A stretch of 27,922 nucleotides of DNA. It comes from a virus. The position numbers were made by a program, and so were the translations under genes. The notes under the pieces are model-generated. The model was not told the DNA's origin. It did no database searches and was given only the letters and a program-made list of their open reading frames with translations. This document shows positions 19,629 through 25,338 of the stretch, piece after piece; positions within the stretch are counted from its first letter, which is position 1, and every line of letters starts with the position of its first letter. The DNA lies in the IMG/VR virus record IMGVR_UViG_3300008113_006343, positions 1 to 27,922 of that record; one strand, written 5' to 3'.

Positions 19629-20204
19629 ATGAATACAGACATTATGATTGACCTCGAAACGTTAGATACTGGTCCTAACGCAACTATTCTCACTATCGGA
19701 GCAGTTAAATTTGATCCGTTTGGTGACGACATTAAAGAACCCAGCAGTGAAAAGTTCTATGTAAGAGTAGATCTGGATAGCTGTAACGAGCTAAAGCTTG
19801 ACGTTAGTAACGATACTATCGATTGGTGGAGTCGCCAAAGTAAAGAAGCACAAGAAGAAGCATTCAGTACTGATGGTAGAATTCATATTAGAGAAGCAAT
19901 GAATCAACTTTACAGTTTTTGTTGGGGTGCTAAACGTGTATGGAGTCACGGTGCAGCTTTTGATATTGTGATTTGCGAAAATGTTTTTAAGAAACTACAA
20001 AAAGCAGTACCGTGGACTTACTGGCAAGTTCGTTGTACTAGAACTTTGTTCGACATTGGAATTAATCCAGAAAGACCTCCGGTACTCAAACACCATGCTC
20101 TCGAAGACGCATGGAATCAAGCAGTAGGTGTTCAAAATACTTACAAGAAGTTAAGGACTGCTAGCGGCATTGATGGTCAACTTTTTAACCCATTAGCAAG
20201 ATGA
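19629..20204 (+). CDS. DEDDh-type 3'-5' exonuclease
   Basis: 191 residues. Exonuclease motif I is D8-x-E10 (MIDLETLD), motif II D112 ([10 protein letters not shown]), and motif III H155 and D160 (KHHALEDAW). Spacing and the WWSRQS segment resemble the Rv2179c-type exoribonuclease family (PF16473), seen in several large phages. It could degrade RNA or DNA 3' ends; the substrate is not set by sequence alone. The gene sits under a perfect sigma70 promoter whose start point is its own start codon, so it is an early gene. It overlaps guaC by ATGA. Confidence 0.88.
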
Positions 20205-21292
20205 GAATTGAAGACGAAATCAAATTAGATTTTAAAGACGTATTAATTCGTCCTAAGCGTTCAACACTGTCTACTCGTAAAGATGTTGAACTAGCTAGAA
20301 CTTATAAGTTCAAACACAGCGGTACAGAATGGACAGGAATTCCTGTAATGGCAGCTAATATGGATGGTGTTGGCACACTTGAAATGGCAAAAGCATTATG
20401 GGATCATCGTATGTTTACCTGCTTGATTAAGTCATACAATGAAGATGACTTATGCGATTTAGCACAAGAGCTTGGCGGTAATTATTTTGCTGTTAGCACA
20501 GGTACTAGTGATAGTGATTTTTTAAAACTGCGAAGAATTATAAATGCCTATCCAGAGATACATTTTATTTGTATTGATGTAGCTAACGGATATCAAGAAC
20601 GGTTTGGCGACTATGTACAAAAAGTACGTCAAACATTTCCTCATTGTACAATTATTGCAGGTAACGTTGTTACCGCAGATATGACACAGGAGTTAATTTT
20701 ACGTGGAGCAGATATCGTTAAAGTTGGTATTGGTCCTGGCAGTGTATGTACTACTCGTGTACAAACTGGTGTTGGGTATCCTCAACTCTCAGCTATCATC
20801 GAATGTGCAGATGCGGCTCACGGTCTCGGTGCTCACATTATTGCTGACGGTGGTTGCACTTGCCCCGGTGACATTGCAAAAGCTTTTGGTGCTGGTGCAG
20901 ACTTTGTAATGCTAGGCGGTATGTTTGCCGGCCATGATGAAGGTGGTGGTCAAGTGGTGACCAAATACTTTAATCCTAAAGGTGAGCAATTTATCAGCGG
21001 CCGTGACACTTATGAGTTTTGTGCTACCAAAGAACAGTTTGTAGAATTTTATGGTATGAGCTCAGACACTGCTATGAACAAGCATCACGGTGGTGTTGCC
21101 AATTATCGCAGCTCAGAGGGTCGCACTGTACAAGTTCCTTACAGAGGTCCTGTAAAAGATACAGTATTAGATATTTTAGGCGGTCTACGCTCAACTTGCA
21201 CTTACGTTGGGGCAGCTAGTTTAAAACAATTATCTAAGTGTACAACATTTATCCGCGTCAATAGACAAATAAACGACGTTTTTCTGAGATAA
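20201..21292 (+). CDS. guaC: GMP reductase
   Basis: 363 residues of the IMP dehydrogenase/GMP reductase barrel. Landmarks are the N-terminal [22 protein letters not shown], and the catalytic loop [11 protein letters not shown] with C183 (E. coli GuaC uses C186). The phosphate-binding [13 protein letters not shown] and the later [14 protein letters not shown] complete the site. There is no CBS domain, which distinguishes it from IMP dehydrogenase. It converts GMP to IMP and ammonia with NADPH, shifting host guanine nucleotides toward adenine, a sensible trait for an AT-rich phage. It is co-transcribed with the exonuclease. Confidence 0.93.
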
Positions 21293-21295
21293 ATA
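21288..21295 (+). promoter_or_regulatory. Late promoter box GATAAATA upstream of dnaK
   Basis: GATAAATA overlaps the last codons and stop of guaC. A start near 21301 would give a 5' leader of about 65 nt that begins with the first hairpin at 21301. It is the best promoter candidate for dnaK. Confidence 0.6.
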
Positions 21296-21300
21296 AATTT

Positions 21301-21361
21301 GTAAAACGCTTCGGGTTTTACAAGGGGCATGAGCCCAAAACTATCTTGCTTTTTAAGGAGA
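21301..21361 (+). promoter_or_regulatory. dnaK leader: ROSE-like RNA thermometer candidate
   Basis: Three hairpins in series. First: GTAAAAC (21301-21307) with GTTTTAC (21315-21321), capped by C-TTCG-G. Second: GGGC (21325-21328) with GCCC (21333-21336), loop ATGA. Third: TCTTGCTT (21344-21351) with the ribosome-binding AAGGAGA (21355-21361), loop TTT, one bulged G at 21348 and a U-G pair. The third has the U(U/C)GCU to AGGA pairing with unpaired G that defines ROSE thermometers. Weak pairs and a small loop would open on warming. Confidence 0.65.
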
Positions 21362-21366
21362 AATAT

Positions 21367-23250
21367 ATGAGCAAAGTAATCGGTATCGATTTAGGTACAA
21401 CAAATTCGTGCGTAGCCATTATTGAAAATGGCACAACTAAAGTAATTGAAAACTCTGAAGGCGCACGTACAACTCCAAGTATTGTAGCTTACGCAAATGA
21501 AGAAATCCTTGTAGGAGCTTCAGCAAAACGTCAAGCAGTAACAAACCCCAAAAACACTATCTACGCAAGTAAGCGACTAATTGGACGAAAGTTCAAAGAA
21601 CAGGCTGTGCAAAAAGATATTGATCTTATGCCATACGAGATTATGGAAGCTAAAAACGGCGATGCATGGGTTCGTGCTAACGGCAAAGAATTAGCTCCTC
21701 CACAGATTTCGGCAGAAGTTCTTCGCAAAATGAAAAAGACTGCTGAGGACTATCTCGGTCATGAAGTTACACAAGCTGTAATTACAGTTCCTGCTTACTT
21801 TAATGATCAACAACGTCAAGCAACTAAGGATGCAGGACAAATTTCTGGTCTTGAAGTATTGCGTATTATTAACGAACCAACCGCAGCCGCTTTAGCCTAT
21901 GGTGTAGACAAAACAGACAAGAAAGATCGTAAGATTGCTGTGTATGACCTAGGTGGTGGTACATTTGACGTATCAATTATTGAAATTGCCAACGTTGATG
22001 GCGACAAACAAATTGAAGTATTGTCTACAAACGGTGACACATTCTTAGGTGGTGAAGACTTTGATCAACGCATTATGGATTTCTTAGTAGAAGAATTCAA
22101 GAAAGAACAAGGCATCGATCTTACCAAAGACATGCTAGCATTACAACGTCTTAAAGATGCCGCTGAGAAAGCAAAAATCGAACTGTCAAGCAGTGCTCAA
22201 ACAGATGTTAACTTGCCTTACATTACAGCAGACGCTAGCGGTCCTAAGCACCTTGTAGTTAAACTTACTCGTGCTAAGTTAGAAAGCCTTGTAGACGAAT
22301 TAATCCAGCGTAGTATTAAGCCATGTAAGGTTGCTATGTTAGATGCTAAAGTAACTGCTGACGATATAGACGAAGTTATCCTTGTAGGCGGTATGACTCG
22401 TATGCCTAAAGTACAAGAAGCTGTTGAGCAATTGTTTGGCAAGGCACCCCGCAAGGATGTTAATCCAGATGAAGCAGTGGCAGCAGGTGCGGCAATTCAG
22501 GGTGCTGTTCTAGCTGGTGACCGTAGCGATGTTCTGTTGTTAGATGTTACACCATTAAGCTTAGGTATTGAAACTATGGGCGGCATTATGGCCAAGTTAA
22601 TCAACAAGAATACAACTATTCCTACAAAACATAGTCAAACCTTTTCAACAGCTGATGACAATCAACCAGCTGTTACAATTAAAGTATTCCAAGGTGAGCG
22701 TGAACTAGTTCAGCATAACAAGCTGTTAGGCGAATTCAACTTAGAAGGAATTGCGCCAGCACCTCGAGGCATGCCACAGATTGAAGTTAGTCTCGACATC
22801 GATGCCAACGGCATTATGCATGTCAGTGCTAAGGACAAGAACACTGGAAAAGAAAACAAGATCACTATCAAGAGTGACAGCGGACTTAGCAAAGAAGAAA
22901 TTGATCGTATGATTCAAGAAGCTGAGACCAATGCTGAAGACGACAAGAAAAAGCGTGAAGAAATTGAAACACGTAATATGGTAGATGCACAGATTCATAG
23001 TATCCGTAAGGATATGACTGAAGTAGCAGATGCAATTAGTCAAGAAGAAAAAGACAAAATTGAGACTGCTATCACAGATCTTGAAACTGCTGTTTTGGAA
23101 AACGATAAGGATAAGATTACTCAAAAAATCAGCGACCTTATTGCTGCCACCGAACCAGTACAAAAAGCCAAAGCCGCCAAAGCCAACGAACCAAAAGTTG
23201 ACGATGGCTTTACTGAAGCTGAAGTTAAAGAAGTTAAAGATCCAGTTTAA
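21367..23250 (+). CDS. dnaK: Hsp70 chaperone DnaK
   Basis: 627 residues from the ATG at 21367 (E. coli 638); an in-frame TTG at 21346 lies within the leader and is not used. The nucleotide-binding domain opens [14 protein letters not shown], with [30 protein letters not shown] and [12 protein letters not shown]. The linker [14 protein letters not shown] and the substrate-binding domain ([15 protein letters not shown]) follow, then a helical lid and a EVKEVKDPV tail like the EEVD-type end. All ATPase motifs are intact. No dnaJ or grpE is in the window, so host partners are needed. A full-length phage DnaK is unusual. The leader suggests temperature control. Confidence 0.97.
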
Positions 23251-23272: not shown

Positions 23273-23321
23273 AGGGGTGCTCAGGTGAGGCCCCTAACAA
23301 TTCTTGCTTATTAAAGGAGAA
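23273..23321 (+). promoter_or_regulatory. hsp20 leader: ROSE-like RNA thermometer candidate
   Basis: First hairpin: AGGGG (23273-23277) with CCCCT (23291-23295), extended inside by CTC/GAG (23280-23282 with 23287-23289). Second: TCTTGCTT (23302-23309) with the ribosome-binding AAGGAGA (23314-23320), loop ATTA, plus an extra U-A pair outside (23301-23321), one bulged G (23306) and a U-G pair. The order, pairing and bulge are the same as in the dnaK leader while the loops differ, which suggests conserved function. Confidence 0.65.
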
Positions 23322-23327
23322 CTTAAA

Positions 23328-23768
23328 ATGACAACATTAACAAGATTTGACACACAAAGCCTAGCCAAGGCTCTAGTTGGCTTTGATCGAATGTTTGATA
23401 CTTTCGAACATAGATTTGCTAATCAACTAGCAACTAATTATCCACCCCATAACGTTATTAAAACTGACGATACCCATTATGTTATCGAAATTGCAGTAGC
23501 CGGTTTCAAACGTAACGAAATTGCTGTTGAAGTTGAACAGGATATTTTAACTGTTCGCGGAGCCAGCGACACATTAAATGAATCAGTAACTCGTCAGTAT
23601 CTTCATAGAGGTCTAAGTAGCAGAGACTTTGAACGTAGCTGGCAACTTGCTGAGCATATGGTAGTCAAGGGTGCTGAAATTCGAGACGGTGTACTCACAA
23701 TCAATCTTGAGTATGTGATTCCGGAAGAAAAGAAGGCACGTATCATTGACGTTGTAGAGGTTAAGTAA
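23328..23768 (+). CDS. Small heat-shock protein Hsp20 (IbpA-like)
   Basis: 146 residues from the ATG at 23328; an upstream in-frame TTG lies inside the leader. The alpha-crystallin domain spans about 38-130: HYVIEIAVAGFKRNEIAVEVEQDILTVRG, the segment FERSWQLAEHMVVKGAEI, and the closing GVLTINLEYVIPE. A short C-terminal tail (RIIDVVEVK) carries an I-x-V-like motif used for oligomer contacts. It binds unfolding proteins without ATP and hands them to DnaK, encoded just upstream. T4-like marine phages often encode Hsp20. Confidence 0.95.
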   Translation: MTTLTRFDTQSLAKALVGFDRMFDTFEHRFANQLATNYPPHNVIKTDDTHYVIEIAVAGFKRNEIAVEVEQDILTVRGASDTLNESVTRQYLHRGLSSRDFERSWQLAEHMVVKGAEIRDGVLTINLEYVIPEEKKARIIDVVEVK

Positions 23769-23814: not shown

Positions 23815-24117
23815 ATGGCAGCTACTGATATCGTATTAGACGAAAAAATCAAACAAAAAATTGAAGAACCTAAAAAATGGAAGGTTATTCTATTAAATGA
23901 CGATCATACTCCGATGGATTTTGTAATTGGAGTACTTACTGAAATCTTTAAACACACTCAAGAAACAGCTAAAGATATCACAATAAAGATACATACAGAA
24001 GGCAGCGGAATTGCTGGCGTTTATAGCTATGAGATTGCTGAAGTAAAATCTGTAGAAACTGTAAACCTTGCTCGTTCAAATGGATTTCCTCTGCAAATCA
24101 AAATGGAGGAAGAATGA
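23815..24117 (+). CDS. clpS: ClpS adaptor
   Basis: 100 residues. The N-degron pocket is present: LLNDDHTPMDFVIGVL with N28, D29, D30 and M34, and H60 in KIHTEGSGIAGVYSYEIAE. The flexible N-terminal segment (1-20) that enters ClpA is kept. ClpS delivers proteins with N-terminal Phe, Leu, Trp or Tyr to host ClpAP. A phage copy could redirect this proteolysis, perhaps against host or surplus phage proteins. RBS GGAGAAA precedes the ATG. It overlaps the heme oxygenase gene by ATGA. Confidence 0.95.
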   Translation: MAATDIVLDEKIKQKIEEPKKWKVILLNDDHTPMDFVIGVLTEIFKHTQETAKDITIKIHTEGSGIAGVYSYEIAEVKSVETVNLARSNGFPLQIKMEEE

Positions 24118-24662
24118 GTTTAAAAGAGCTCACACACGAACAGCACAGAACAGCCGAGACACAGCCTTTTGTCAAGGTATTATTTTCTGGCAAGATAGAT
24201 CCAAAGATTTATGCTATCTATCTTTTTAATCAACACAGAATGTATGACGTATTAGAAGCCTGCGCTATGATGCACGGGCTTCTAAACGATTATCCTACAA
24301 TTCGTAGAAGTCCAAATATTTTTTCAGATTTTGAAGAATTATGGGAAGACAAAAACAGTCGTCCCAACATATTACCTTCAACCGATCGTTACATCAAATA
24401 TGTAATGTCGATTAAAGATGATCCTAAAAAGTTGTTGGCACACTTATATGTTAGGCACTTTGGAGACCTAAGCGGCGGACAAATGATAGCCAAACGTGTT
24501 CCAGGAAACGGTAAGTATTATCAATTCGATGGTGACACTGATCAAATCAAAAATATACTTAGACAAAAATTAGATGATAGTCTGGCAGACGAAGCTCGTG
24601 TTTGCTTTCAATATGCTACTGAATTTTTTCAAGACATGATGAGTGTAGTAGATGCAAAGTAA
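24114..24662 (+). CDS. ho1: Heme oxygenase
   Basis: 182 residues of the canonical HO-1 type. The proximal heme ligand is H11 in THEQHRTAE. The distal helix motif GDLSGGQMIAKRV is complete. The length is short, lacking a membrane tail, as in cyanobacterial and phage enzymes. It opens heme to biliverdin IX-alpha, iron and CO using ferredoxin electrons. The next gene reduces biliverdin, so the pair forms a pigment pathway; released iron could also feed the iron proteins encoded here. Its 3' end overlaps the next gene by 11 nt. Confidence 0.93.
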   Translation: MSLKELTHEQHRTAETQPFVKVLFSGKIDPKIYAIYLFNQHRMYDVLEACAMMHGLLNDYPTIRRSPNIFSDFEELWEDKNSRPNILPSTDRYIKYVMSIKDDPKKLLAHLYVRHFGDLSGGQMIAKRVPGNGKYYQFDGDTDQIKNILRQKLDDSLADEARVCFQYATEFFQDMMSVVDAK

Positions 24663-25338
24663 AGTTTGGGATACGCTGATTAATATCCAGCAATTACTAG
24701 AAAGGAAGTTTAATGAAACAGGCACAGAAGTCTTTGAGACGGGTATGGATCGCTTCAATAGCCCTGGTTGGGTTAATCGTGTTTGGACCAGTAGCAGTTA
24801 TCGTAGGGCTCACGTTGATGTTGTGGATGCTAGGGAGACCAAAGGTCTCTGGATGATGCATTGTTGTGTGTTCCCGCATACACACAATCCTGCTCCTATA
24901 TTTGGTTTTGATGTTATTGCTGGCAAAAACAAAATTACAGGTTGTTTTATAGACTATAGTCCTGCAGGCGATTCGGAGCATCCTATGTTAGAATGGTTTG
25001 CAGATGAATCTAACAAACTAGACTGGAACAAGAAACGTAAACTACCAGACTGGGCTGAGCGTATCTTTAGTTCTAGCATGATTGCCGCAGGTAATGTAAG
25101 TGATGAAACTGAATTAGCACAAATAGAAAGCCTTGCACAAACTGCTATCAATCATTATTTAGAAACTGTGGGCGAAACTAATCGCACAACAGATAACACA
25201 GCACATGAGCAAAACTACTATGCTCAGAATCAAAAAATGAATCCTCATACTCCTAAAGTTATGACTAGCTTAGGACTAAATGAGGAAGATGTTAGGGTCT
25301 TTATACAAGACTGTTTATTTCCTGAGATTAAATTATGA
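24652..25338 (+). CDS. pcyX: Ferredoxin-dependent bilin reductase (PebS/PcyX-like)
   Basis: 228 residues, the length of phage PebS/PcyX. Family features: VWTSSSYRRAHVDVVDAR, the substrate pocket MMHCCVFP and PIFGFDVIAGKNKITGCFID with a catalytic-type Asp D87, the DYSPAG loop, and the C-terminal QNYYAQNQKMNPHTPKVM. These enzymes reduce biliverdin with ferredoxin. PebS and PcyX do a four-electron reduction to phycoerythrobilin; PcyX was described from uncultured oceanic phages not linked to cyanobacteria. The symbol pcyX is my best guess; PebS, PcyA or PebA cannot be excluded without a tree. It follows ho1 directly, as in those phages. Confidence 0.85.
   Translation: MQSKVWDTLINIQQLLERKFNETGTEVFETGMDRFNSPGWVNRVWTSSSYRRAHVDVVDARETKGLWMMHCCVFPHTHNPAPIFGFDVIAGKNKITGCFIDYSPAGDSEHPMLEWFADESNKLDWNKKRKLPDWAERIFSSSMIAAGNVSDETELAQIESLAQTAINHYLETVGETNRTTDNTAHEQNYYAQNQKMNPHTPKVMTSLGLNEEDVRVFIQDCLFPEIKL

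Follow-up and report, generated by a model that had tools for sequence, protein, structure and literature searches.

A ROSE-like leader in front of phage chaperone genes and its possible recognition by the phage Hsp20

Introduction

The closest validated relatives of the leader described here are the two-hairpin RNA thermometers of Pseudomonas ibpA (PMC3669281). Together with the Rfam family ROSE_3 (RF02523) these elements share with the phage leaders a hairpin I with a bulged G (GAUGCC..GGGUC), a second hairpin in which a U(U/C)GCU strand with a bulged G faces the Shine-Dalgarno (SD) sequence, and a small heat-shock protein (sHsp) gene as target. In the phage leaders, however, the SD stem is weaker, an extra hairpin is often present, A-type variants occur, dnaK and groES are additional targets, and a T4-like late promoter takes the place of sigma32. 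The families ROSE (RF00435) and ROSE_2 (RF01832) likewise mask the SD of ibpA or hsp genes by U(U/C)GCU with a bulged G, but they are longer and comprise three to four hairpins with stable stems.

In Escherichia coli, Cedecea neteri and Vibrio harveyi the IbpA protein represses its own translation via a ROSE-type 5'UTR, for which residue R93 is required (PMC10474464). The phage leaders resemble this system in that an IbpA-like sHsp is encoded directly after the leader and in that Y34, R93 and R97 are mostly kept; they differ by also preceding dnaK and groES and by a switch between G and A at the bulge that goes along with Ala or Thr at residue 54. Whereas IbpA binds its 5'UTR and represses, the indication on the phage side is indirect and consists in residue 54 tracking the bulge base.

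Temperature-sensing leaders have been described in phages for lambda cIII, SPbeta blyA (fourU) and the sigma70 gene of gut Caudoviricetes (fourU) (PMC11182007). These differ from the present leaders in their motif (fourU or alternative folds) and in their genes, none acting on chaperones. An earlier note on the DNA analysed here knew of no described phage thermometer of this type, which holds in so far as our searches turned up neither a ROSE-type phage thermometer nor one acting on chaperone genes, but has to be read beside the other phage thermometers that are known. Within the open-licence literature (subscription papers and preprints being outside the scope) no report of the element in phages was found.

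Two copies of the leader in one phage

The window analysed comprises the entire 27,922 bases of the IMG/VR record IMGVR_UViG_3300008113_006343 and has the gene content of a phage, including a ribonucleotide reductase and an exonuclease. Three plus-strand genes follow each other: dnaK (21367-23250, start ATG at 21367; Pfam HSP70; NCBIfam DnaK, 984.6 bits), an IbpA-like hsp20 (23328-23768; Pfam HSP20; top NCBIfam model IbpA with E=5e-36, under the curated cut-off) and clpS (23815-24117). A full-length GMP reductase-like gene (20201-21292; NCBIfam above cut-off) lies immediately 5' of the dnaK leader. A pigment-synthesis pair, haem oxygenase plus ferredoxin-dependent bilin reductase, occupies 24114-25338 on the 3' side of the chaperone genes and clpS; the top NCBIfam model for the reductase is phycocyanobilin:ferredoxin oxidoreductase, below cut-off.

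The earlier note had proposed a ROSE-like thermometer in the dnaK leader, with a last hairpin that masks the ribosome-binding site behind two stabilising hairpins. Reading of the sequence confirmed this SD-masking hairpin at 21344-21361 (plus strand, as are all leader features given below), where U21344-C-U-U-G-C-U-U21351 stands opposite A21355-A-G-G-A-G-A21361. The pairs are U21344-A21361, C21345-G21360, U21346-A21359, U21347.G21358, C21349-G21357, U21350-A21356 and U21351-A21355, with G21348 unpaired and a loop at 21352-21354. Both upstream hairpins were found in the sequence and in the folds. Hairpin I (21298-21324), which is also backed by covariation, has a long stem with a bulged G21308, a C-G pair and a UUCG tetraloop (cUUCGg), and hairpin II (21325-21336; GGGC-AUGA-GCCC) is optional across the family. 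The late-promoter-like sequence GATAAATA at 21288-21295, just 5' of the leader, resembles the T4 late promoter TATAAATA.

While the element in front of dnaK is real, the earlier note had overlooked a second copy in front of hsp20 in the same window. This copy consists of a hairpin I (23273-23295) with a bulged G23279 and an SD-masking hairpin UCUU[G23306]CUU / AAGGAGA (23302-23320), and is matched at 23273-23320 by the covariance model R1 (see below) with 43.9 bits and E=4e-10. The unpaired G21348 is likewise present as claimed, but a large group of phages, which the note missed, has an A at this position (UCUUACUU).

The window contains three instances of TTGCT-N2-8-AGGAG against 0.38 expected, and dnaK and hsp20 each follow one of them. 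A 100-nt fold of the dnaK leader gave z = -2.6, largely due to the upstream hairpins. The decisive support for the element beyond chance is comparative.

Occurrence across phages

Homologs were gathered solely by protein similarity before their leaders were read, resulting in 109 distinct leaders, 62 of dnaK and 47 of hsp20. Every one of them contains YUYR-CU followed by the SD at variable spacing, which is consistent with a hairpin loop between anti-SD and SD. The earlier note had regarded phage dnaK leaders lacking the pairing as evidence against its proposal; the pairing is kept in 62 of 62. The anti-SD reads UUGCU or UCGCU in 78 of the 109 leaders, among them both leaders of the window (UUGCU), and UUACU, UCACU or near variants in the remainder. 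The bulge base in this strand is G in 73% of the leaders and A in 27%.

As controls, 171 further distinct genes of the same loci whose SD contains GGAG were examined; the motif occurred once, before the clpS gene of the phage studied here. We considered clpS as a third gene bearing the element and rejected it: homologous clpS leaders form a plain hairpin that lacks the anti-SD motif, so that the match in the window is attributed to chance and clpS serves as an internal negative control. The gene may nevertheless be a regular partner of phage hsp20; the cultured jumbo Pseudomonas phage PA5oct (L286) has the same order hsp20-clpS, with the SD hairpin UCUUGCGUAAAGGAGA.

A gene-blind search of IMG/VR with the DNA pattern UCUUGCUU gave 123 matches, 103 of them before Hsp20, eight before DnaK (together 111 of 123) and one before GroES. 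In contrast, UCUUACUU as a plain pattern in IMG/VR was dominated by chance matches (chaperones 53 of 136) and was discarded. Whole-leader alignments with MAFFT (A1, A2) misplaced the stems and were replaced by a seed of six leaders of identical layout (alignment A3), from which R1 was built. In 807 kb R1 found 108 matches, of which 82 precede Hsp20, 23 DnaK, two GroES and one a rubredoxin gene located directly before hsp20. In this last locus (L015, 2231-2950) the hsp20 following the rubredoxin-like gene has an anti-SD motif of its own.

The complete records of 32 phages (genomes of 90-400 kb) carry zero to three copies each, and the extra matches inspected there precede another hsp20 and one small phasin-like gene. 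The latter, encoding 88 amino acids, follows a good copy (L322, 1718-2050, minus strand; 28.9 bits) and is the only clear non-chaperone target in the whole phage genomes examined. Cultured phages with the element include S-PM2, P-SSM3, P-HM1, Mosig and PA5oct.

A [TG]ATAAATA sequence was found 60-95 nt before the start codon in 78 of 101 dnaK and 65 of 217 hsp20 leaders, compared with 15 of 479 letter-shuffled upstream regions. Based on this position and on the analogy to T4 late promoters the transcript should start at hairpin I.

The protein-found leaders, the control genes, the blind pattern and the covariance model are four tests that do not share one bias. Taking them together, the conservation of the leader in chaperone genes is more than chance and not an accident.

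Structure and covariation

Within the covariance-model matches, each of the eight base pairs of hairpin I has changes in both strands. Counted across the complete structure, 97.3% of the cells are paired, compared with 82.1% after shuffling, and 248 double changes stand against 65 expected; none of 500 shuffles reached any of these measures, which come from an alignment fitted to the structure and hence biased in its favour. Slid structures drop to 58-73% paired. The pairing of the SD hairpin is unprovable by double changes since the SD sequence is fixed. Of 108 copies, 103 retain the U.G pair beside the bulge of this hairpin and five have C-G instead; since C-G would fit as well, a weak SD stem seems to be preferred. 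Hairpin I and the SD hairpin have the local motif Y[R]C / GG in common, and about half of the leaders, including that of the window dnaK, contain a further GGGC..GCCC hairpin between the two.

Predicted stability of the SD hairpin

The isolated SD hairpins of the window have predicted energies of -2.8 (dnaK) and -2.5 kcal/mol (hsp20) at 25 °C and of -1.4 and -0.9 kcal/mol at 37 °C, the latter two not reaching the -4.1 to -7.6 kcal/mol of the validated Pseudomonas elements. For G-type SD hairpins the medians at 25 and 37 °C are -2.8 and -1.2 kcal/mol; the same method yields -6.3 and -4.6 kcal/mol for E. coli ibpA.

In an RNA ending at the start codon the thermodynamic model forms the SD hairpin of the window between 10 and 42 °C. 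Between 5 and 45 °C the median unpaired probability of GGAG in leaders without coding sequence rises from 0.07 to 0.28, versus 0.43 to 0.57 for other genes. When 30 nt of coding sequence are included, the median probability of the SD hairpin amounts to about 0.01 for dnaK and 0.1-0.2 for hsp20, and for the window dnaK the model favours pairing of UUGCUU with GAGCAA of codons 1-3. This alternative pairing was rejected as a general conserved switch, given that A-type dnaK genes mostly start with AUGUCUAAG and that hsp20 genes lack it. Shuffling the anti-SD letters alone turned out to be useless as a folding control, as pyrimidine-rich shuffles still pair with GGAG.

The masking of the SD is therefore based on conservation and not on predicted energy. 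As the latter is too weak in context, the hairpin would have to be kept in place by co-transcriptional folding or by a bound protein, and switching by heat alone is, according to the model, energetically marginal and unproven.

Coupling between the bulges and residue 54 of Hsp20

The bulge bases of hairpin I and of the SD hairpin agree (G/G or A/A) in 271 of the 275 leaders in which both are readable. Two of the four exceptions come from the phage L252; L117 was parsed wrongly, and L100 lacks a clear hairpin I. A larger Hsp20 set comprises 234 G/G, 63 A/A and seven mixed leaders. Within one phage the dnaK, hsp20 and groES leaders share one type, again except for L252.

The bulge type is furthermore coupled to the Hsp20 residue equivalent to A54 of E. 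coli IbpA. With G-type leaders this residue is Ala (243 of 244), with A-type leaders mostly Thr (63 of 69); in the window protein it is Ala58 (codon 23499-23501, by alignment). Ser accounts for five of the exceptions, including L252, while L373 and L400 combine an A-type SD bulge with Ala54 and have G in hairpin I. This otherwise near-invariant column is the top separator among all Hsp20 columns (0.976; next 0.889). The same holds for dnaK leaders on the same contig: A/A goes with Thr in 40 of 40 and G/G with Ala in 101 of 101 cases, and the two discordant rows, from one phage, have Ser. In the Ser-54 phage (L252 / L311 / L398) the dnaK leader combines a hairpin I bulge A with an SD bulge G, the hsp20 leader the reverse; it is possibly an intermediate.

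The DnaK tree shows four joint changes of residue and leader type, two on well-supported branches. Independent traits simulated on this tree with three to six changes reached a maximum concordance of 0.978, compared with 1.0 observed. One variable column out of about 650 in DnaK reaches 0.967 as a lineage marker, which shows that lineage effects can come close to the signal of residue 54. A-type sequences fall within a single supported group of the Hsp20 tree and may have arisen one to three times. Due to the small number of independent switches, sign tests for the coupling cannot attain 0.05. We therefore regard the coupling of bulge and residue as a strong lead and not as proof. Since a thermometer predicts neither the agreement between the bulges nor that between bulge and residue, both couplings suggest a trans-acting reader.

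Among 226 phage Hsp20 proteins, the position equivalent to R93 is occupied by Arg in 203 and Lys in 22, that of Y34 by Tyr in 200 and Phe in 26, and that of R97 by Arg in 174 and Lys in 38. The Hsp20 of the window, the proposed reader, keeps all three as Tyr38, Arg99 (codon 23622-23624, by alignment) and Arg103. An AlphaFold model of the phage Hsp20 was of moderate quality (pLDDT 76).

Relation to bacterial ROSE elements

The ROSE-like architecture that the earlier note had described was found as stated: U(U/C)GCU faces the SD with an unpaired G, a stable hairpin lies upstream and chaperone genes follow. The comparison with ROSE covariance models, which the note had put forward as a check, had a divided outcome. 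At the gathering cut-off the Rfam scans gave no match in the window to ROSE, ROSE_2 or ROSE_3, whereas phage leaders gave sub-threshold matches to ROSE_3, the top ones (L021, 26.1 bits, E=0.095; L001, 23.9 bits, E=1; gathering score 43) being full-length and in register. The same type of scan recovers ROSE and ROSE_2 at bacterial ibpA loci (alphaproteobacteria, E. coli). With the features of ROSE present and the gathering cut-off missed, the element is named ROSE-like and is not a member of a deposited family. Nor is it a fourU element, as the strand opposite AGGA is UCUU[R]CUU instead of four U in essentially all leaders.

The deep Hsp20 alignment was too diverse for a scan of bacterial genomes, and a single-protein query gave 22 bacterial ibpA loci. 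Position 54 is Ala in every bacterial relative that protein similarity brought up, and the majority carry CUUGCUU or UGUUGCU as a G-type anti-SD 5' of the SD. Because R1 gave only marginal matches in bacterial genomes, direct descent is not claimed. One record assigned to a phage, MG065691.1 (L281, 2501-3500; Campylobacter phage A11a, labelled "UNVERIFIED"), contains a ROSE_2 element (100 bits) and an ibpB-like gene following an ibpA gene. Its ibpA gene presumably is that of E. coli, judging by its appearance, and the segment probably represents bacterial contamination of the phage record.

Possible modes of action

As the comparison shows, the leader combines a stable hairpin I with a weak SD hairpin, each carrying a bulged purine. 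With slightly better than even confidence we favour, from comparative data and the analogy to IbpA, a thermolabile operator at the level of translation that is bound by the IbpA-like Hsp20 of the phage and opened by heat or titration. In unstressed cells the weak hairpin would hide the SD, and the oligomeric phage Hsp20 would bind 5'-Y[R]C.../...GG-3' in both hairpins and thereby keep the leader shut. Heat would melt the SD hairpin and unfolded or aggregated protein would draw Hsp20 off, whereupon translation of hsp20, dnaK and groES would start. The net effect would be a phage-encoded feedback circuit responding to heat shock and aggregation, comparable to the control that E. coli IbpA exerts over its own mRNA. 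Somewhat short of an even chance, in our estimate, is the more specific proposal that the phage Hsp20 is a sequence-specific RNA regulator whose residue 54 picks the bulge purine (Ala for G, Thr for A, with Ser tolerant) and which runs an hsp20/dnaK/groES regulon opened by titration or heat. Against an operator for Hsp20 speak the 22 proteins with Lys at R93 that keep the element, although R93K abolishes repression in E. coli, the weakness of the SD hairpin, which the model mostly loses with 30 nt of coding sequence, and the few switches (four on the DnaK tree, two well supported) together with the discordant L373 and L400.

A pure ROSE-type thermometer for cool water, in which the SD hairpin melts on warming and no protein takes part, appears rather unlikely. 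The stability of the stem at about 15 °C would roughly equal that of the E. coli ibpA stem near 37-42 °C, the weak features of the phage stem (bulge and U.G) are conserved and the modelled folding energies depend on temperature. The two-hairpin ROSE-like elements of Pseudomonas indeed act in this manner, with hairpin II alone being sufficient and deletion of the bulged G locking the structure (PMC3669281). However, melting does not account for the match of the hairpin I bulge with the SD-hairpin bulge or with the Hsp20 residue, it requires less than the near-invariant UCUURCUU, and the hairpin is predicted not to form in full context. The resemblance of two hairpins with the same local motif to a two-site protein operator would also be compatible with another RNA-binding protein of the phage, such as RegA, or of the host; in S-PM2, P-HM1 and S-CAM1 regA is located just 5' of hsp20. 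We consider this improbable, given that no regA was identified beside the elements of the window, that the element accompanies hsp20, dnaK and groES and tracks the Hsp20 residue, and that its bacterial counterpart precedes ibpA. To a fixed attenuator, which would ensure low constant chaperone synthesis or protect the mRNA without any sensing, we assign a similarly small probability: mRNA stabilisation would agree with the weakness of the SD hairpin and with a stable 5' hairpin placed where transcription from a late promoter probably begins, but the element is confined to heat-shock chaperone genes in very different phages and is absent from clpS and other late genes.

Implications for phage biology

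Chaperone genes of phages (hsp20, dnaK and sometimes groES) share a ROSE-like leader that masks the SD, as judged from its conservation. Since no Rfam family reaches its gathering score, the element appears to be unannotated at present. The data indicate a large group of ROSE-like RNAs in aquatic phages, with cultured cyanophages and a pelagiphage among them. The hsp20 gene belongs to what is regarded as the core gene set of marine cyanophages. As many copies follow a T4-like late promoter, the chaperone regulon of these phages would be self-contained and independent of the host heat-shock sigma factor. The co-variation between leader and protein is a hint that the phage's own Hsp20 may read the leader, and the natural G/Ala and A/Thr pairs would provide matched and mismatched partners for studying how IbpA-type sHsps recognise RNA.
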